Shown: piece after piece, positions 27,173 to 63,256 of the stretch
Position numbering within the stretch: position 1 is the stretch's first letter
Layout: each line of letters starts with the position of its first letter
Assembly: GCF_001895145.1 (NCBI RefSeq)
Contig: NZ_BDIR01000003.1
Coordinates: 62,001-126,000, forward strand
Direction of reading: 5' to 3'
Source: Arcobacter sp. LA11
GTDB lineage: Bacteria > Campylobacterota > Campylobacteria > Campylobacterales > Arcobacteraceae
Length of the DNA stretch: 64,000 bases
Notes under the pieces: generated by a model
What the model saw: the letters and a program-made list of their open reading frames with translations, nothing else
What the model was told of the DNA's origin: nothing
Database searches by the model: none
Translations under genes and position numbers: made by a program

Positions 27173-27207
27173 AAGCCAAGTAATTATATAATTTACTTGG
27201 CTTTCTT
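27173..27207 (+). terminator. Rho-independent-like terminator after argG
   Basis: An 11-base perfect stem (AAGCCAAGTAA at 27173-27183 with its complement at 27193-27203), 9-base loop, then TTCTT. It separates argG from the peptidase-ligase operon that starts at 27256. Confidence 0.7.
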
Positions 27208-27255: not shown

Positions 27256-28347
27256 TTGGACTTTTTAGAAGATTTAAAAACTATAATAAATATTAATTCA
27301 CATACAGAAAATAAACATGGTGTCGATAAAGTTGGTAAACATATGTCTATATGGTTACAAGAACTTGGCTTTGAAACTATAAAATATGAAAGGGAACTAT
27401 TAGGAGATCACTTATTATTTAAAACTAAAAAAAGAGATGGAATAAAAATACTGTTATTAGGACATAATGATACTGTATTTCCTAAAGGCTATTTTGAAGG
27501 TTTTAAAGAAGATGAGGAATGGGTATATGGCCCAGGTGTATGTGATATGAAAGGTGGCAATATTGTTGCTTTAGAATCTTTAAGAAATATATATAAAGAG
27601 AATAATGAAATATACAATATTGACTTTCTACTTGTATCAGATGAAGAAACTGGAAGTGATGATTCAAAAGAAGTAACCATGTCTATTGCAAAAGATTATG
27701 ATTATTGCTTTGTATTTGAAGCTGCTGGTGCTAATTTGGAAGTAGTGACATCAAGAAAAGGTGTTGGAAGATATATAATAAAAATAGATGGTAAAGCTTC
27801 ACACGCAGGAACTTCATATACTAAAGGAATAAATGCTAACTTAGAAGGTGCAATAAAACTTCAAAAATATTCGGAATTAATAAATCTAGAAGAAGGTACT
27901 ATTGTAAATGTAGGACAAATTGAAGGTGGTATAGGAATAAATACAGTTTCTCCTTATTGTGAAATGAAAATGGAATTTAGATTTGACAAAAAAAATGAAC
28001 AAAAAAGAGTAATGGATGCTGTAGAAGAAATTACTTCTACTTCTTATGTTCTAGGAACAAAAGCTCATGCTGATGGAATAATTCAAAGAGGTGTTATGGA
28101 AGAAAATTCTAAACAACTTGAACTTATTAAATTTTTTGAAGAATTAACATCTGAATCTATTCCAAAAGAACGTAGAGGGGGAGTTAGTGATGCCAATATT
28201 GTGGCAAGCTGTGGTGTGACCACAATAGATGGCTTTGGTCCATATGGGGATGGGGATCACACTATAAAAGAGAGAGCTCTTAAAAGTTCTTTTTTACAAA
28301 GAATTGAAATGATGACAAAAATATTAAGGCATTATCAAAATATATAG
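27256..28347 (+). CDS. M20-family zinc peptidase
   Basis: Starts at TTG 27256 with AAGGA 6 bases upstream. The 363-residue protein has the M20 di-zinc plan: LLLGHNDTVFP (His70, Asp72), bridging Asp97 in GVCDMKGG, the catalytic pair Glu130-Glu131 in VSDEETGSDD, and a late ligand in GDGDHT. A lid dimerisation domain lies in between (SHAGTSYTKGINAN). It resembles glutamate carboxypeptidase (CPG2-like) enzymes that cleave C-terminal acidic residues from small conjugates. There is no signal peptide, so it is cytoplasmic. It is the first gene of a four-gene operon with two ATP-grasp ligases and an M14 carboxypeptidase, so its substrate may be the ligase product. Confidence 0.88.
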   Translation: MDFLEDLKTIININSHTENKHGVDKVGKHMSIWLQELGFETIKYERELLGDHLLFKTKKRDGIKILLLGHNDTVFPKGYFEGFKEDEEWVYGPGVCDMKGGNIVALESLRNIYKENNEIYNIDFLLVSDEETGSDDSKEVTMSIAKDYDYCFVFEAAGANLEVVTSRKGVGRYIIKIDGKASHAGTSYTKGINANLEGAIKLQKYSELINLEEGTIVNVGQIEGGIGINTVSPYCEMKMEFRFDKKNEQKRVMDAVEEITSTSYVLGTKAHADGIIQRGVMEENSKQLELIKFFEELTSESIPKERRGGVSDANIVASCGVTTIDGFGPYGDGDHTIKERALKSSFLQRIEMMTKILRHYQNI

Positions 28348-28384
28348 TTTTTAAAAATTAATAAATCTTAAATTAGGGGAAGTT

Positions 28385-29287
28385 ATGGGAAAAAGAAAGA
28401 TTGGTATGTGGTTATACCAAAATGGTGGTGGAGATAAAATCCAAGAGAAAATGATTTCTTTATTAAAAGAAAGAGAAATTGATGTTATACCAAATATAAA
28501 TTTAAGAGATGCAATTGCAAAAAATGGACATATTTTATATAATGATATAAAACTTGATAAGTTAGATTTATTTTTCTCATATAATGCTGGTGAGCAAACA
28601 CAATATCAGATGTATTTATATAAAGCACTAAATCATGTAGTACCAATGATAAACTCGTATGATGCATTTGAACTTACTGAAGATAAATTTCAAACTGCAT
28701 TTTTGTTAAGAAAACACAAAATACAAACAGCAGACTATAAACTTTGTCATAGGGATGATACTCATCATTTAAAAACAATCATGAAGAAATGGGATAAAAT
28801 GGTATATAAACCGACTGATGGTTGGGGTGGTGTTGGTCTTACAAAAATTGAAAACCAAGAAACTCTTGATATGCTTATGCCTTTTTTAAATCAAATGGAT
28901 TTAAGATATTTTTATGTAGAAAAATTTATTGATTATGATAATACTGATTATAGAGTTGATGTTGTTGATGGTCAATTTGTTGGTTGTTATGGAAGAAAAG
29001 CAAGTGGTACAGACTGGAGAACCAATGTAACAAGCGGAGGAAGTGTTTTTGTTAGAAAACCTAAAGATGCTGTAATCGAATTGGCACTAAATGCTGCTAA
29101 AGTTACAGGACTAGATATAGCAGGTGTTGATATTATATACGATAGAAAAAAAGAAGAATATATTGTTTTAGAAGTAAATGGAATTCCTGCTTTTGCCACC
29201 CCTGAACAGGAAAAAATGGGTCTTAACTTCAATGATAAAAAAATAGAATTAATTGTAGATTTAATTGATAGAAAAACAAAAAAATAA
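28385..29287 (+). CDS. RimK-like ATP-grasp ligase
   Basis: A 300-residue ATP-grasp protein. The ATP loop is seen as VYKPTDGWGGVG (residues 141-151), a substrate and phosphate arginine lies in TDYRVDVVDG, and the metal ligands in GVDIIYD...VLEVNGIP (Glu263, Asn265). This is the RimK/glutathione-synthase-like subclass that ligates amino acids to a carboxylate through an acyl phosphate. The N-terminal 90 residues are a pre-ATP-grasp alpha/beta domain. It starts 37 bases after the M20 gene and ends 13 bases before the second ATP-grasp. The acceptor is unknown. Confidence 0.85.
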   Translation: MGKRKIGMWLYQNGGGDKIQEKMISLLKEREIDVIPNINLRDAIAKNGHILYNDIKLDKLDLFFSYNAGEQTQYQMYLYKALNHVVPMINSYDAFELTEDKFQTAFLLRKHKIQTADYKLCHRDDTHHLKTIMKKWDKMVYKPTDGWGGVGLTKIENQETLDMLMPFLNQMDLRYFYVEKFIDYDNTDYRVDVVDGQFVGCYGRKASGTDWRTNVTSGGSVFVRKPKDAVIELALNAAKVTGLDIAGVDIIYDRKKEEYIVLEVNGIPAFATPEQEKMGLNFNDKKIELIVDLIDRKTKK

Positions 29288-29300
29288 AAGGAAATATAGT

Positions 29301-30803
29301 ATGAGTAATTTACCAAAATTAGGATTTTTATATCTTGATTATGTATTAAGATTTTTTGACCATTCAAATTTTAAAGGTTGGCCAGATAAAATTGAGACTG
29401 TTACATATCACTGGAAAAATGATAAAGATAGATTTATTAAAGAAGTTAAAAGAAAAAAAATTGAAATATTAATTGGTAATATTCCTGCAACTGCATATGA
29501 TACTTTTGTAGAAATTTCTAAAGAACTTCCTAATGTAAGATTTGTTCCCTCTTTAGAAACACAATTTCCAAATAAGTCAAAAGAGAATGTGACTCTTTTT
29601 TGTAACAAATATAATCTTTCAGCTCCTTATACAGAAATTCATTATGACAAGAAAAAAGGTTATGATTATTTAAAAAACAGAGCTAAATATCCTCAAATTA
29701 TTAAAAGATCATATGGTGCTTCAAATTATGGAGGTTACTATGTTCATAAAGCTGATAATTTTGCGGAAGCAAAAGCCTTATTAGATAAAGAAAAATATAA
29801 CCCTATTTATACACAAGATGGAATTGATTTAAAATATTCAGGAGATTTAAGAGTAATGCTGATAGGACATAAACCTATTTGTGCTTTCTGGAGATTTTCT
29901 GGCGAAGGAGAATGGATTACTAATACATCTCAAGGTGGTTCAATGTCTTATGAGAATGTTCCAATGAATGCACTTGAATTAGCAGTAGAAGCAAGTAAAG
30001 CAGCTAAAGCAGAATATTGGGCTTGTGACATTGCAATTGATGCAAAAACAGATAAAGCTTATATTTTAGAGTGTGCAACTGCTTTTGCAGCTTTCCCTTA
30101 TATTAGAGATTGGATTTGTCAATACTTGATGTGGGATTTTTCAAATGGAAGATTTAAGATGCCTCATGTTCCATTGTTCTCATGGGAAGAGTTAGGTAAG
30201 ATTGATTCTTCTTTATTACGAACTATGAGACATATTGGTTTTAGTAAATATAAACCTTCTTGTGATGGTACGTGGTATATAAATGATAAAGTAGATGAGT
30301 TCGATATGGAAAAAGCTGAATTAAGTGATTCTAGTGATGTTCCTGATTCAATTGCCCCTGAAGATTTGCCAATTAAAGATGATTTAACAAAAGAAGTTAA
30401 ACATGATAATCTTGAAATTAACAAATTAAACTTTAATAAGGCCACTCTAACTGATATTATGACACTTCATGGTATGGAAGAGGAATTAGCCTTAGAAATT
30501 CAAGAGTATCTTGAAGATAATATTGTTACTGATACAAGTGATTTATTAGAATTAGAATCTATAGATGAACAAATGCTAGAAACTTGGGATGACCATGTAG
30601 ACGATATGAGAGTAGATATTAATAAAGCTGATGAATCTATTTTAAAGAAAATAAAAGGAATTGGTGCTAAACTTGCGAAAATCATTCTAGATTTCAAAGT
30701 AAAAAATAAAGGTTTTAAAAACTTAGACCAGCTCGAAGAAATTGATGGTATAGGTAAAAACAAATTAGCACAATTAAAATCTAGATTTAAAATAGGAGAA
30801 TAG
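29301..30803 (+). CDS. Divergent ATP-grasp protein fused to C-terminal helix-hairpin-helix domains
   Basis: I use ATG 29301 (MSNLPKLGFLY), which has AGGAAA upstream; the longer frame from 29265 would overlap the previous gene. Residues about 1-300 have an ATP-grasp layout: IIKRSYGASNYGG (Lys135) for ATP, GDLRVMLIGH, and DIAID...YILECAT. In the last motif Glu257 is kept but the Asn expected two residues later is replaced, so the metal site is altered. After an acidic linker (about 330-372) come two helix-hairpin-helix units, 373-435 and 438-500; the second carries KGIGAKLAKII and DGIGKNKLAQL as in ComEA-type domains. Such domains bind DNA or proteins. The fusion is unusual for an amino-acid ligase. 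Confidence 0.75.
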   Translation: MSNLPKLGFLYLDYVLRFFDHSNFKGWPDKIETVTYHWKNDKDRFIKEVKRKKIEILIGNIPATAYDTFVEISKELPNVRFVPSLETQFPNKSKENVTLFCNKYNLSAPYTEIHYDKKKGYDYLKNRAKYPQIIKRSYGASNYGGYYVHKADNFAEAKALLDKEKYNPIYTQDGIDLKYSGDLRVMLIGHKPICAFWRFSGEGEWITNTSQGGSMSYENVPMNALELAVEASKAAKAEYWACDIAIDAKTDKAYILECATAFAAFPYIRDWICQYLMWDFSNGRFKMPHVPLFSWEELGKIDSSLLRTMRHIGFSKYKPSCDGTWYINDKVDEFDMEKAELSDSSDVPDSIAPEDLPIKDDLTKEVKHDNLEINKLNFNKATLTDIMTLHGMEEELALEIQEYLEDNIVTDTSDLLELESIDEQMLETWDDHVDDMRVDINKADESILKKIKGIGAKLAKIILDFKVKNKGFKNLDQLEEIDGIGKNKLAQLKSRFKIGE

Positions 30804-30806
30804 TTT

Positions 30807-33395
30807 TTGAAGCAACTTTATCGATCATACGATGAATCAACAGAAATTTTTAGGCAATACCAAAATAAATATCCAAACTATTTCAAAATAGACTCTATTG
30901 GTAAAACTTGGGAAAAAAGAGATATAAATTTAATTACTATTAGTAAAGATATTAAGAGTGCAGATAATAATCCTGCACTTTTCTTTACAGGAACTATTCA
31001 TGCTAGAGAATGGGTTGGACATGAGCTTGCAATTGAATTTGCAACATACATTTTAGAAAATCTTGAAACAGATCCAACTTTACAAGCTTATTTAAAAAAT
31101 ACAACTATATATATGGTTCCCTGTGCAAATCCTGATGGATATGAATACTCAAGAAATCATTTCTCTTTTTGGAGAAAAAATAGAAGAGTAAATGCAGATG
31201 GATCTTATGGTGTAGATTTAAATAGAAACTTTCCAATTGGCTATGTTAAATCAACTGCCACAACTTCAAATGTATACGGTGGACCAGAACCTTTTTCAGA
31301 GCCTGAAACTAGAGCTTTGAGAGATTTTGTTGAAGCTCATGAAAATATTACTATAGCTTTAGATTATCATTCACAAGGAAATGTATTTTTCCCTGCACAT
31401 GATTTTAGACATGAAGATACTATTGATACAACTGATATGAATACATTATGTGCAAATATGGCAGAAGAAATAAGAAAAATCTCAGGTAGAGAATATGGTA
31501 TTCATCAAGGAAAACCACCTACCAAGCTAATTTCTGGAAGTGGTAGAGAATTTTATCACTCACGTGGAATAATTTCATCTGTTGTAGAAGTAGGTACTAG
31601 AAATATATCTGATTATATGGATGACATGAATGAACATTTAAGAGAACATGTCCCTGCTCTACTTGCTGCTGTTAAAGAAGTTCCTAATTATTCAGAAAAG
31701 AATTCAGTCTATAGAGTTAAATCTTTTGAAATAACTGAAATAGGTTCAAATCATGCAAATTTATCTTGGTCTTATGAAACAGATAAAAATATATTTTTTG
31801 AAATTTATAGAAGTTTAAAAGATAAAAATTTTTGTAATGCATCAAATTTAATAGCAAGAACACAAAGTTTAGAATTTAGTGATATCAATTTACAAAGTAA
31901 TAAAGACTATTTTTACAACATTAGAGTTGTAAATAAAAAAACTGGTGAAAAATCACCTTTTTATCCACAAATCAAGCTTAGAACCAATCCTGATTATGAT
32001 GAATTTAGTAGAACATACTACGCAAATGCAAAAGAGACTGGATATGTAGCTGAAAATTTAAATCAAAATGATAAACATTTTGGAGTAAACTCTTTATTTG
32101 TTGGGGTAGATGAGAATAAAGGTGTTTCTTATGCAATTGTTACGATTGATGTAAAAACTTTACCTGCTAATGCCTTGATTAAGTCTGCATCATTTAACTT
32201 ATATCCTATAAATAGAGTTTCTACAACTATTGAAAAATATGGGGAATGGAATGTTGGTATAGTAGATCCAGAATCAATAAAAGATATTACAAGTTTTGAT
32301 GACGTTCAAAATATGAAAATATTAAGATATATAGGTAGACCGACTGAATCTCATCAATTAACTCAAGGTATTTGGAGAGGATGGCATTTATCTGGACTAG
32401 AGTGTGAAGACTTACAAGAATTAGCCTCTGATAAAAAGAAAGTTGTTTTAAGAGTTGAAGGGCCAAAAGAGTTAAGAATTGGACGTACAAGACAAATGAT
32501 GCAATGGGACATTGGTTATGGTAAATTTGGTTATGGATTAGGTTATAGACCTAGACTTGAACTTACATATACTATGAAACCAACTATCACTGAACTATAT
32601 CCAAAAGCTGTATATACAGTTAGTAAGAATGAAGTCAAATCAGATGAAATATCTGCAGGTTTTGATAAAGATGGTGCTTCTATATATTCTACTTTTGAAT
32701 TTAATTTATCATCTTTACCACCATATAACGATACTTTTATCACAAAAGCCTATTTTGAATTAAACTCAACAAAAATCTATATTAAAGATGATATTAGATT
32801 CCATTTAGAGTTTGTAGATGAAAATATTGACCAAGATTATAAGAGTATTAGAAATAGAGATATTATTCAAAATGTAGGATTTGATGTTAGTGCTACTGAA
32901 TTAAAAAACAATCAAACTCAATATTTTACTTTTGATACTTTTTCTGAGATAACTCTAAATGAAAAGTTAAAAAATAAATCTGATGTTGCTTTTGTCTTAA
33001 AACCAACTTCATCTAAAAAAGCTATAAAAGATAAAAGTGTTTCTTGGGAAGTAAAAAATAAATCTCTATCTCCAAAACTTATTTTAGAGCATATTCCAAA
33101 AAGAAGAAATGCAGTTGAAAAAGTTTCAAATGCTAAAATCATAAAAGAAAATGGGAAGATAAAAATCACTTGGGACAATCCAAAAGATGACGCATTTAAA
33201 GGTGTTAAAGTGATAAAAAATGCTTATAGAAAACCCTACTCTTCTCATGATGGACAAAAAATTTATGCAGGACTAGATGATTATACATATGATGATTTTG
33301 GTGCAAAAGATATAAATAAGTATTATGCAATATTCACTTATGATGATGTTCCTAACTACTCTGAGCCTATAATTTTAGAATACCAAGTAAAATAA
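30807..33395 (+). CDS. Large M14 zinc carboxypeptidase with accessory beta domains
   Basis: Starts at TTG 30807, with AGGAG upstream and only 3 bases after the previous stop. Residues 1-290 are an M14 catalytic domain: zinc ligands His65 and Glu68 (TIHAREWVG) and His188 (DYHSQGN), substrate residues Asn139-Arg140 (VDLNRNFP), catalytic Glu261 (VVEVGTRN). Then follow a fibronectin type III-like domain (about 305-395), two regions of about 150 residues each with a jelly-roll-like pattern, and a final Fn3-like domain (about 770-862). No signal peptide is visible despite these extracellular-type accessory domains. By position it may trim residues added by the two ligases. Confidence 0.85.
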   Translation: MKQLYRSYDESTEIFRQYQNKYPNYFKIDSIGKTWEKRDINLITISKDIKSADNNPALFFTGTIHAREWVGHELAIEFATYILENLETDPTLQAYLKNTTIYMVPCANPDGYEYSRNHFSFWRKNRRVNADGSYGVDLNRNFPIGYVKSTATTSNVYGGPEPFSEPETRALRDFVEAHENITIALDYHSQGNVFFPAHDFRHEDTIDTTDMNTLCANMAEEIRKISGREYGIHQGKPPTKLISGSGREFYHSRGIISSVVEVGTRNISDYMDDMNEHLREHVPALLAAVKEVPNYSEKNSVYRVKSFEITEIGSNHANLSWSYETDKNIFFEIYRSLKDKNFCNASNLIARTQSLEFSDINLQSNKDYFYNIRVVNKKTGEKSPFYPQIKLRTNPDYDEFSRTYYANAKETGYVAENLNQNDKHFGVNSLFVGVDENKGVSYAIVTIDVKTLPANALIKSASFNLYPINRVSTTIEKYGEWNVGIVDPESIKDITSFDDVQNMKILRYIGRPTESHQLTQGIWRGWHLSGLECEDLQELASDKKKVVLRVEGPKELRIGRTRQMMQWDIGYGKFGYGLGYRPRLELTYTMKPTITELYPKAVYTVSKNEVKSDEISAGFDKDGASIYSTFEFNLSSLPPYNDTFITKAYFELNSTKIYIKDDIRFHLEFVDENIDQDYKSIRNRDIIQNVGFDVSATELKNNQTQYFTFDTFSEITLNEKLKNKSDVAFVLKPTSSKKAIKDKSVSWEVKNKSLSPKLILEHIPKRRNAVEKVSNAKIIKENGKIKITWDNPKDDAFKGVKVIKNAYRKPYSSHDGQKIYAGLDDYTYDDFGAKDINKYYAIFTYDDVPNYSEPIILEYQVK

Positions 33396-33416
33396 GATTT
33401 CTTTCTTATTTTACTT
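33385..33416 (+). terminator. Inverted repeat ending the peptidase-ligase operon
   Basis: A perfect 12-base stem (AAGTAAAATAAG at 33385-33396 with its complement at 33405-33416) and 8-base loop overlap the M14 stop codon. It is AT-rich and lacks a clear T-tract, so it may be a weak terminator. Confidence 0.5.
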
Positions 33417-60505: not shown

Positions 60506-63256
60506 TTGAAAAAGATTCTTGATATCTTATTCTCCTTCAAGACAACACTTACTTTATTGGCTATTCTAGCTATTGGTGCTGGTGTAGCAACATTTATTGA
60601 AAATGATTTTGGTACATCTTCTGCTAGAGTTTTAATTTATAATAATATTTGGTACGAAACAGTTTTAGTTTTAACAACATTAAATATGGCTGGAATTATT
60701 TATAAATATAAAATGTGGAAACATAAAGCTAGATTTATTTTCCATACATCGTTTGTAGTAATCTTAATCGGTGCTGCAATGACTAGATATGTTGGATATG
60801 AAGGTATTATGCATATTAGAGAAGGTAAAACTGAAAATAGAATGATTTCATTAGAACCTTATTTGCAAGTTAAAATAAAACAAGAAAATGGTAGCTACTA
60901 TAAAGAGTATCCTTTAGAATTAACTGCCTTAGGAAGCAATGACTTTACATACAAAATTAAATTTAATGGAAAAGAGTTAGTTGTAAAATTCAATAACTTT
61001 ATGTATGCAAAAAAAGGTCAAAACAATATGAGTATTTTAAGTGTAGATGCAATACTTAATGGGCAAACCAAAACTGTCAAACTACCTGGAAAAAGAGGAA
61101 TGAAAGGGATTTCTAAAATGGAAGACTTTGGAGATACTATCGTTACTTTAGAATATGGTTCAAAAGTATTATCTTTACCTTTTTCTATACACTTAAAAGA
61201 TTTCCAACTTGATAGATATCCAGGAAGTATGGCTCCTTCTTCATATGCATCAGAAGTTACAGTAAACAATGAAGATGGTACAAAATATGATTATAGAATC
61301 TTCATGAATAGAACACTTCATCAAGGAAACTTCTTATTTTTCCAAAGTTCATATGATCAAGATGAAAAAGGTACAGTACTTTCAGTTAATAATGACCCAG
61401 GGAAGTGGCCTACGTATCTGGGATATTTTTTATTAACACTAGGTCTTGTTTTAAATTTATTTGATAAAAAATCAAGATTTTGGAAACTTACAAAATATGT
61501 TAATGCAAAAAATGCAGCCGGTCTAATTACTGCATGTATGTTAGCCTTTTCAACAAATAGTTTAGAAGCAGCAGAACCTAATACAACGGGATTAGATTTT
61601 AATGCAACAAAAAATGATACAACTGCTTACTTAAATAATTTTAAGGAAAAGTCAGTACTTACTGCTGATAAGTTTTCTAAACTAGTTGTACAAAGTAGTG
61701 GTGGAAGAATGAAACCATTAAATACGCTTAATAGAGAAATTGCTTATAAACTATCATCTAAAAGTTCAATGTTTGGAATGAATTCAGATCAAATTATTCT
61801 TGGAATGCTTACAAGACCAGAACTTTGGCGAAATGTAAAAATGATTAAAATTAAAACACCAAAATTAAAAAAGATTTTAGGTGTAGAAACATCAAGAAAA
61901 TATATTGCATTCTCTGAAGTTTTCAAAGGCGGAAAATATGTGCTTAATGATGAAGCACAAAAAGCTTCAATGACTAAACCAAATGAACGAGGTACATTTG
62001 AAAGAGATATTATAGCACTTGATGAAAAATTAAATATTGCATACATGGTTTACAACGGTAACTTATTTAATTTATTCCCTCAAATAGGTGTTAATGATAA
62101 TAACAAATGGTATACACCTCTTGATGCTATGAAATCATTTAAAGGAGAGAACCAAAAAGCTGTAGAATCTATGGTTAGAGGTTTTATAAACTCTGTTATA
62201 AATGAAAACTGGGAAGTATCAAATAAATTTTTAGATATGTTATCACAATATCAAGAAAAAGCAGGAGCACAAGTTATTCCTTCTAAGTCACAAATTGATA
62301 AAGAGATTGCTTTTAACAATTTAGATATTTTTCCTAAAATTACACTTGCATATATTATTTTAGGTTTTGTAATGTTAATTGTTGCATTTATTGTTGTTTT
62401 TAATCCTAAAATTAAACCAAGAAAAACTACATTTGTATTTTTTATTTTACTAGCAATTCTTTTTGCACTTCATACTTTTGGTATGGGGTTTAGATGGGTT
62501 GTTTCAGGACATGCGCCTTGGTCAGATACATATGAATCTCTTTTATATATTTCATGGTCAGCAATTTTTGCTGGGGTTATTTTCTTTAGAAAATCACTTC
62601 TTGCATTAAGTGCAGCTGTAATAGTAGCTGGTATTTTTATGTTTACAGCACACTTAACAGGTATTAACCCTCAAATTACAAACCTAGTGCCTGTACTAAA
62701 ATCATACTGGTTAACAATTCATGTTTCAATTTTAACAGCTTCATATGGATTCTTTGGATTAGGTGCTATTTTAGGTTATATGTCATTAATAATGTATATA
62801 TTTAGAAAAGGTAGACCTCATTTAGATGAAACAATTAAACATATTACTGCTATTAATGAAATTGCGTTAATTATTGGATTATCAGCGATTACTATTGGAA
62901 ACTTCCTTGGTGGAGTTTGGGCAAATGAATCTTGGGGTAGATATTGGGGATGGGATCCAAAAGAGACTTGGGCTTATGTATCAATCGTATTATATGTATT
63001 AGTTGTACACTTAAGATTTGTTAAACCACTTAACAATCCATTTGTATTCTCAACAGCATCATTATTGACATTCTCTTCAATTTTAATGACATATTTTGGA
63101 GTAAACTTTTATCTATCAGGAATGCACTCGTACGCAACAGGGGATCCAGTTCCAGTTCCTATGTGGGTATACTATATAACAGCTGCTATCTTTGTAACAA
63201 TAGGACTTGCATACAAAAATAGAAATCTAAAAGATGATGTTTGTCATACAAAATAA
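60506..63256 (+). CDS. ccsBA: Fused cytochrome c assembly protein ResB-CcsA
   Basis: Starts at TTG 60506 with AAAGGA upstream. A 916-residue system II heme handling protein: residues 1-330 are ResB/CcsB-like (FKTTLTLLAILAIGAGVATFIE, then transmembrane helices and a large periplasmic part). A long periplasmic region follows, and the last 280 residues are CcsA-like with the tryptophan-rich heme motif WGRYWGWDPKETWAY near 810 and histidines in flanking helices. It delivers heme to the CXXCH motifs of apocytochromes in the periplasm. Such fusions are typical of Campylobacterota. It would serve the tetraheme protein at 1865. Confidence 0.94.
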   Translation: MKKILDILFSFKTTLTLLAILAIGAGVATFIENDFGTSSARVLIYNNIWYETVLVLTTLNMAGIIYKYKMWKHKARFIFHTSFVVILIGAAMTRYVGYEGIMHIREGKTENRMISLEPYLQVKIKQENGSYYKEYPLELTALGSNDFTYKIKFNGKELVVKFNNFMYAKKGQNNMSILSVDAILNGQTKTVKLPGKRGMKGISKMEDFGDTIVTLEYGSKVLSLPFSIHLKDFQLDRYPGSMAPSSYASEVTVNNEDGTKYDYRIFMNRTLHQGNFLFFQSSYDQDEKGTVLSVNNDPGKWPTYLGYFLLTLGLVLNLFDKKSRFWKLTKYVNAKNAAGLITACMLAFSTNSLEAAEPNTTGLDFNATKNDTTAYLNNFKEKSVLTADKFSKLVVQSSGGRMKPLNTLNREIAYKLSSKSSMFGMNSDQIILGMLTRPELWRNVKMIKIKTPKLKKILGVETSRKYIAFSEVFKGGKYVLNDEAQKASMTKPNERGTFERDIIALDEKLNIAYMVYNGNLFNLFPQIGVNDNNKWYTPLDAMKSFKGENQKAVESMVRGFINSVINENWEVSNKFLDMLSQYQEKAGAQVIPSKSQIDKEIAFNNLDIFPKITLAYIILGFVMLIVAFIVVFNPKIKPRKTTFVFFILLAILFALHTFGMGFRWVVSGHAPWSDTYESLLYISWSAIFAGVIFFRKSLLALSAAVIVAGIFMFTAHLTGINPQITNLVPVLKSYWLTIHVSILTASYGFFGLGAILGYMSLIMYIFRKGRPHLDETIKHITAINEIALIIGLSAITIGNFLGGVWANESWGRYWGWDPKETWAYVSIVLYVLVVHLRFVKPLNNPFVFSTASLLTFSSILMTYFGVNFYLSGMHSYATGDPVPVPMWVYYITAAIFVTIGLAYKNRNLKDDVCHTK

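Follow-up and report, generated by a model that had tools for sequence, protein, structure and literature searches.

Four adjacent genes of Arcobacter sp. LA11, which encode an M20 metallopeptidase, a RimK-like ATP-grasp amidoligase, a second ATP-grasp amidoligase fused to an HhH domain (ATP-grasp-HhH, hereafter AG) and an M14 carboxypeptidase, form one functional unit, as is strongly supported by their inheritance as a block even where AG or M14 has been relocated. We tentatively propose, with slightly less than an even chance, that this quartet operates a reversible acidic-residue ligation cycle made of two ligase-hydrolase pairs, AG-M14 and RimK-M20.

Architecture of the locus

The quartet lies in a window of 64,000 nucleotides, i.e. 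positions 62,001 to 126,000 of contig NZ_BDIR01000003.1. ORF coordinates confirmed that the four genes lie on the same strand, separated by 37, 13 and 3 bases, and Pfam agreed with the families assigned to them in a previous sequence-only reading. Homologues favour the ATG at 29301 as start of AG over a longer TTG ORF, and a purine-rich stretch resembling a ribosome-binding site is located upstream of all four starts. The terminators that had been postulated at both borders were recovered upstream, where a hairpin is followed by a U-rich tail, and in part downstream, where the hairpin lacks a clear U-run.

Table 1. Features of the quartet locus; positions refer to the window.
Feature	Position	Strand	Remarks
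Intrinsic-terminator-like hairpin closing argG, upstream operon border	27173-27203	+	-16.4 kcal/mol, z -4.0, U-rich tail
M20 metallopeptidase gene	27256-28347	+	TTG start; Pfam PF01546/PF07687 (M20 + M20_dimer)
RimK-like ATP-grasp amidoligase gene	28385-29287	+	Pfam RimK, PF08443, E 3.6e-22
AG (ATP-grasp-HhH) amidoligase gene	29301-30803	+	Pfam RimK (PF08443) + HHH_3
HhH (ComEA-type) domain of AG	30609-30788	+	residues 437-496; PF12836, E 1.5e-22
M14 carboxypeptidase gene	30807-33395	+	Pfam Peptidase_M14, PF00246, E 3.2e-60
Arg247 codon of M14, carboxypeptidase A residue-255 position	31545-31547	+	alignment to CPA4
AU-rich hairpin, downstream border	33385-33416	+	-13.6 kcal/mol, z -5.0, without clear U-run

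The regions between the M20 and RimK genes were scanned for regulatory boxes. The ends of the regions were trimmed for the Pho-box scan, since the RimK start ATGACAG reads CTGTCAT backwards and inflates matches. Following trimming, enrichment of Pho boxes was limited to Alteromonadales, and control of the unit by the phosphate regulon is regarded as a weak lead. Nothing clear was detectable for CRP, LexA, ArgR, Fur and other boxes in these M20|RimK intergenic regions. An FNR-like palindrome is present in 12 of 75 of them, as compared to 0 in shuffled sequences.

The four genes are inherited as one unit

The sequence-only reading had named rare co-occurrence of the four genes as an observation that would speak against it. 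When this was checked, AG was detected in 32, RimK in 31, M14 in 32 and M20 in 32 of 298 Campylobacterota genomes, and all four genes were present in 30 genomes, the carriers of the unit spanning 7 families and 14 genera. Every gene pair co-occurs (Fisher p <= 1.7e-36 across these 298 genomes, which are phylogenetically non-independent). Among 141 Vibrionaceae genomes, AG, RimK and M14 were all found in the same 26. The complete quartet is present in 74 of the 80 best named loci, which come without exception from Campylobacterota or from mostly marine Gammaproteobacteria; the named carriers are mainly Campylobacterota MAGs and Gammaproteobacteria of marine or halophilic type. Since the genes co-occur in Campylobacterota and, independently, in Vibrionaceae, chance adjacency is rejected.

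The order of the four genes is conserved and the flanks vary between loci, with no recurrent neighbour that would reveal a pathway (among 113 flanking proteins, no family occurs more than 5 times). In genomes G009 and G129 AG is unlinked from M20-RimK-M14, and in G249 M14 resides on a separate contig, yet the relocated gene is retained in each case. Solitary members exist as well, i.e. M14 alone in G256 and M20 alone in G061. The proteins of the unit share ~45-65% identity across two phyla, and there are signs of transfer: Shewanella marina falls inside Vibrionaceae and Veronia beside Pseudoalteromonas. Among 321 evenly drawn Gammaproteobacteria, the centre genome was the only strong positive. 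A search for virus-borne copies returned 85 pattern matches in viral contigs, 0 of which were relatives.

AG is coupled more tightly with M14

Within the unit, AG and M14 show the tighter coupling. A split comprising 13 genomes, which were picked as a clade for the tree test after the AG tree had been seen, obtained support of 100 in the AG tree and in the M14 tree and was rejected by RimK (p 0.003) and M20 (p 0.011). Patristic distances of AG and M14 correlate with r 0.89, and the best patristic partner of RimK is M20 (0.71). Moreover, genome G218 retains AG and M14 only, and G105 retains RimK and M20 only. Because the deep AG/M14 split is rejected by RimK and M20, and in view of these two partial sets, we read the quartet as an AG-M14 pair and, by inference, a RimK-M20 pair.

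Features of the two ligases

Both ligases exhibit the fold, the catalytic Asp/Glu residues and the TN..GG motif of the RimK-fold ATP-grasp superfamily, with the exception that AG carries Ala in place of the Asn of the ExN motif. In the RimK-like enzyme the canonical D/E/N metal triad is present, D249, E263 and N265 being invariant in the alignment of homologues. Its scores stay below the cut-offs of the family models MptN (142.8 bits), rimK_fam (127.3 bits; cut-off 143.4) and S6 ligase (54.4; cut-off 331). Residues R190 and N265 are equivalents of RimK R189/N262, which contact the last Glu (PMC10092738). In P. aeruginosa RimK the poly-Glu chain is held by R64 and S68 (PMC10092738); the corresponding positions of the RimK-like enzyme are occupied by Tyr66, which is invariant, and by a Glu.

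AG keeps D243 and E257, and the Ala at the position of the Asn is invariant (ECA). As this metal ligand is missing, activity of AG is an assumption. In a comparison of sequence profiles, the solved structures closest to AG are those of LysX, with which it has the motif R..W.TNT..GG in common, and the AlphaFold model (pLDDT 85) is closest to the folds of ArgX, RimK and LysX (Z 21-22). One alignment row from a plasmid collection was left out for structure prediction. The C-terminal HhH domain is present in most of 56 AG homologues and may recruit AG to a substrate, perhaps one located on nucleic acid.

Features of the two peptidases

The closest solved relative of M20 is carboxypeptidase G2 (CPG2; 1cg2, E 2.6e-30; profile E 3.5e-43), and residues H70, D97, E131, E155 and H335 are conserved and align to the metal-ligand positions of 1cg2. 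The score remains under the cut-off of the NCBIfam glutamate carboxypeptidase subfamily (175.5 vs 349). M20 resembles a glutamate-releasing enzyme, and glutamate release is its putative activity.

M14 possesses the features of the carboxypeptidase A (CPA) type, i.e. the Zn ligands H-x-x-E/H, the catalytic Glu and the Arg binding the substrate carboxylate; H65, E68, H188, N139, R140 and E261 are invariant in 51/51 homologues, and the predicted structure (pLDDT 86) has the CPA fold. Arg247, likewise invariant in all 51 homologues, aligns with the Ile of SGSSID in CPA4 and thereby places an Arg at the CPA residue-255 position, as in acidic-specific, carboxypeptidase O-like (CPO-like) M14 enzymes. 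Arg255 confers acidic specificity, although even among eukaryotic CPO paralogues the identity of residue 255 does not fully predict it (PMC9925722). With Arg247 at the specificity position, M14 is predicted to remove C-terminal Glu or Asp. The protein has neither a signal peptide nor a prodomain, and the N-termini are not hydrophobic. Its tail contains a DNRLRE domain at residues 595-760, and FN3 is found in 31/51 homologues; no separate structural match to the tail appeared among the matches listed, which M14 domains fill. Since tailed, beta-rich M14 enzymes are more typical of surface proteins, the assignment of M14 to the cytoplasm depends on its lack of a signal peptide.

A candidate acidic-residue cycle and its alternatives

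Co-inheritance of two ligases with two probable acidic-residue cutters points to a make-and-break cycle for intracellular acidic amino acids. In the proposed cycle, an acidic amino acid, most likely L-Glu, would be ligated to an acceptor carboxylate in the cytoplasm and subsequently removed. AG would add the acidic residue to the C-terminus of a peptide or protein, and M14 would trim it, Arg247 selecting C-terminal Glu/Asp. For the RimK-like enzyme the acceptor would be related or smaller and the residue attached to it probably Glu; the CPG2-like M20 would hydrolyse the bond so made. The acceptor, the amino acid used and the direction in which each enzyme works are inferred. The sequence-only reading had understood the pairing of ligases with peptidases as reversible peptide tagging: co-occurrence bears out the single unit, the chemistry suggested by the M14 pocket Arg, the CPG2-like M20 and the RimK/LysX-type ligases lends moderate support to reversible acidic-residue ligation, and the target may be a protein or a small molecule. 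A more specific version, in which the quartet would be the equivalent in bacteria of eukaryotic glutamylation cycling, with two ligases and two carboxypeptidases dedicated to reversibly appending acidic residues to cytoplasmic proteins, HhH directing AG to nucleic-acid-bound targets and phosphate or salt tuning the process, appears rather unlikely.

The strongest competitor, a serious possibility although not the one we favour, is that the quartet builds and salvages a small acidic oligopeptide serving as osmolyte, reserve or cofactor-like metabolite, the ligases acting stepwise and the peptidases degrading the product as in dipeptide osmolyte or cyanophycin systems. The conserved set consists of two ligases and two exopeptidases and nothing else, relatives of M20 work on small N-acyl or dipeptide substrates, and the marine and halophilic carriers would suit an osmolyte; the single strong positive among the evenly drawn Gammaproteobacteria is also in favour of this reading. 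However, habitat-bound gene transfer could also give the marine distribution, the unit travels without transporter, amidotransferase or acetyltransferase, and a CPA-type M14 with a body of 860 residues as well as an HhH-tethered ligase seem made for larger substrates.

Carrier chemistry of the LysW type, in which a LysX-like AG would charge a small, acidic carrier protein with an amino acid and M20, of the LysK-like family, would release the product, is improbable. It would fit the resemblance of AG to LysX by profile and to ArgX/RimK/LysX by fold, and M20 weakly matches the LysW-lysine hydrolase model. Against this, LysW was detected in 0/10 carrier genomes by a model that was positive in 4 control genomes, the intergenic gaps in the window are too short for a small ORF and no further gene accompanies the unit. 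These gaps also leave no room for a precursor ORF, whereby a graspetide RiPP cluster with a hidden precursor peptide was rejected.

Patchy distribution, gain and loss of the whole unit and signs of transfer would be compatible with defence or self-immunity through ligation and cleavage of a peptide toxin. We consider this very improbable, given no match to 5027 defence models (PADLOC, none at E up to 0.01), no viral copies, no recurring defence neighbours and strong sequence conservation of all four proteins.

The sequence-only reading had mentioned RimK with RpS6 as an example of such tagging. Modification of ribosomal S6 in the RimK/RimB manner with different proteases has the RimK-like fold and ligase family in its favour and is nevertheless the least credible alternative, as the poly-Glu-holding residues are replaced, the score is below the rimK subfamily cut-off and the S6 tails of Arcobacteraceae carriers terminate in KKAN or similar, as do those of non-carrier relatives. 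The S6 C-terminus of the genome itself is EEAAKKAN, and comparison of the tails rejected S6 as target here; some other carriers have Glu/Ala-rich S6 tails. Hence, S6 and LysW are both disfavoured as acceptors.

Comparison with known systems

Few cases of bacterial ligation by RimK-type enzymes, be it post-translational or on metabolites, are known. Should the proposed cycle act on proteins, bacteria would possess another glutamylation-type switch in addition to that of S6; should its targets be small molecules, marine bacteria would be expected to contain a new metabolite, an acidic oligopeptide. The acidic C-terminal specificity of M14 is a sharp prediction within reach of one enzyme assay.

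Amidoligase-peptidase neighbourhoods, in which unrelated peptidases accompany ATP-grasp ligases within conserved operons, were reportedly described by Iyer et al. in 2009, and the quartet follows the same general logic. The sequence-only reading had regarded the combination as uncharacterised, and indeed no description of the quartet was found in literature and family models, the 2009 survey lying outside that search; to this extent we consider the quartet an undescribed variant of the amidoligase-peptidase logic.

In the NAGGN dipeptide osmolyte system, a trio of amidotransferase, GNAT-ATP-grasp fusion and M42 peptidase likewise combines an ATP-grasp ligase with a metallopeptidase in a small, conserved operon of bacteria adapted to salt, but all three components are missing from the quartet according to Pfam. 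Tubulin glutamylation by TTLL ligases is opposed by M14 cytosolic carboxypeptidases (CCP). The likeness to this system and to carboxypeptidase O, which bears on function by analogy, lies in an ATP-grasp-type ligase opposed by an M14 enzyme whose acidic pocket is based on Arg; unlike the CCP subfamily, the quartet M14 is of the CPA type with a DNRLRE/FN3 tail and no prodomain, and we know of no tubulin-like acceptor for the quartet. The LysX/ArgX-LysW-LysK systems share with it an ATP-grasp enzyme of the AG subfamily and an M20 hydrolase, whereas the 10 quartet carriers screened lack LysW, the quartet M20 is closer to CPG2, and nothing in those systems corresponds to M14 or to the second ligase. 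Finally, RimK and RimB act on S6 in Pseudomonas and E. coli as glutamate ligase of the RimK family and glutamate-removing protease, respectively (PMC10092738, PMC11957791). A RimK-family ligase alongside a protease is common to both, but RimB is a retropepsin in place of the M14 and M20 zinc exopeptidases, the S6 tail and the poly-Glu residues do not fit, and a second ATP-grasp enzyme with HhH is found only in the quartet.

Conservation of the four-gene unit

The window lies on contig C3 of a 3.1 Mb Campylobacterota genome, and the quartet is bounded there by argG and a hexapeptide-repeat gene. The sequence-only reading had described four genes of these families on one strand, separated in order by 37, 13 and 3 bases, which agrees with coordinates and Pfam assignments. 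It had also placed a terminator on each side; the upstream one is indeed a good terminator hairpin, whereas the downstream hairpin has no clear U-run, so the claim is partly right.

Genes of the quartet in the window
Gene	Position	Strand	Basis
M20 metallopeptidase	27256-28347	+	Pfam
RimK-like ATP-grasp ligase	28385-29287	+	Pfam
AG (ATP-grasp-HhH)	29301-30803	+	Pfam
M14 carboxypeptidase	30807-33395	+	Pfam

The proposed association of the four families held when each protein was searched in 298 whole Campylobacterota genomes. AG, M14 and M20 were each detected in 32 genomes and RimK in 31, and all four occurred together in 30, representing 7 families and 14 genera (Fisher p ≤ 1.7e-36 for every gene pair, values that overstate independence because the genomes are related). 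Chance is mostly removed as a doubt, since a second, separate group agrees: among 141 Vibrionaceae genomes, AG, M14 and RimK are present in exactly the same 26. It is near certain that the unit exists and is obligately co-inherited.

Scanning 84,980 species genomes turned up 365 close AG relatives, the best 80 of which belong to Photobacterium, Vibrio, Shewanella marina, Pseudoalteromonas, Alteromonas, Colwellia, Endozoicomonas, Halomonas maura, related genera and Campylobacterota. The four genes are complete at 74 of these best 80 loci, usually with M20 divergent and facing RimK-AG-M14. Among 321 evenly drawn Gammaproteobacteria the centre genome was the sole strong positive, so the unit is rare across this class overall. 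No paper or family model for the quartet was found, in a search outside of which the 2009 amidoligase survey lies.

Function, beyond linkage, keeps the unit together. In G009 and G129, AG is isolated between efp and dnaE and M20-RimK-M14 are kept together at another place, while in G249 M14 resides on a separate contig. In G037, AG is a decayed fragment with stops, and M20, RimK and M14 are all lost; in G256, M14 is the sole remnant between argG and the hexapeptide gene after clean loss. Flanks vary by genus: among 113 flanking proteins, any one neighbour family accounts for 5 at most.

AG stands alone between efp and dnaE within one genus (L047, 6000-7418; L060, 6619-8040; L061, from G037, with the decayed fragment). 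Two of the 26 Vibrionaceae carriers hold two unit copies (G628, on C12; G638, on C62/C63), and in at least one of the extra copies AG and M14 are broken together. The Shewanella marina copy (L067) places inside Vibrionaceae and the Veronia pacifica copy (L079) beside Pseudoalteromonas in several gene trees; judged from these placements, the unit appears to have been transferred between families.

Proposed ligase-hydrolase pairs

In trees built from 51 full clusters, AG and M14 share a deep split setting apart 13 Campylobacterota including the window (support 100 in both). As this group was picked from the AG tree, the independent part is the M14 agreement. Grouping of the same 13 was rejected for RimK (p 0.003) and M20 (p 0.011). 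Patristic distances agreed best between AG and M14 (r 0.89; 0.91 inside Campylobacterota), and the best partner of RimK was M20 (r 0.71). Partial systems comprise AG and M14 only (G218) or M20 and RimK only (G105, no AG trace behind RimK). Because trees, distances and partial systems split alike, we infer a unit of two ligase-hydrolase pairs, which in most cases act jointly; the RimK-M20 pairing is the less firm half of this reading.

Possible phosphate regulation, and expression

Pho-box-like repeats (CTGTCAT, 4 bases, CTGTCAT) are enriched in M20|RimK intergenic regions of Alteromonadales: matches of at least 11/14 occur in 7 of 22 non-redundant regions, while control intergenic regions reach this level in 2 cases of 118. 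Permuting the word gave a higher score only twice in about 200 versions, both containing TGTCA. The enrichment was not seen in the corresponding Vibrionaceae or Campylobacterota regions. In G218 (L048, 3356-12313), AG-M14 without RimK and M20 lies divergently beside an operon of pstS-pstC-pstA, an ABC ATPase and phoU. Phosphate control of the unit is suggested, no more.

Direct TGTCA repeats spaced by 11 were noticed between M20 and RimK at L091, L092, L097, L101, L119 and in other Alteromonadales. Two published proteins might be unit members, namely a chromosome II 'GshB' of Photobacterium damselae, up 38-fold at low salt (PMC10308900), and the 'RimK family' protein EAR30706 of Pseudoalteromonas tunicata, among the top biofilm proteins (PMC12153261).

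Predicted function and comparison with known systems

The explanation we favour, giving it nearly an even chance, is a cytoplasmic cycle in which acidic residues would be added to, and then removed from, the carboxylate end of an acceptor. A pathway for small acidic oligopeptides is the main rival, possible though rather unlikely. S6 was rejected as target in the window genome, as it has no acidic end there and the same tail occurs in close relatives lacking the unit; a LysW carrier is absent in ten carriers of the unit, none of 5027 defence models matched, and no viral copy was found among the viral contigs searched.

As to the hydrolases of the favoured add-and-remove cycle, M14 is of carboxypeptidase A type by sequence and predicted fold, with FN3 and DNRLRE domains in its tail. 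Zinc ligands, catalytic Glu and Arg247 are invariant (Arg247 in 51 of 51 homologues), and Arg247 aligns with carboxypeptidase A residue 255 (SGSGRE vs SGSSID); acidic specificity of carboxypeptidase O rests on Arg255 (PMC9925722). Because neither signal peptide nor prodomain was found, M14 is probably cytoplasmic and active. M20 is closest to carboxypeptidase G2, a glutamate carboxypeptidase, and keeps all metal-ligand positions.

AG has a RimK/LysX-like fold (Z 21-22) and a LysX-like R..W.TNT..GG stretch, and most homologues possess the C-terminal HhH domain. Its metal triad consists of D, E and an invariant Ala replacing Asn; therefore activity is not to be assumed, and AG is a predicted ligase. 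In P. aeruginosa RimK, an Arg and an Asn contact the last Glu, and Arg64 and Ser68 hold the growing poly-Glu chain (PMC10092738). The RimK-like protein retains the former two but not Arg64 and Ser68, which fits a Glu-type ligase for another acceptor.
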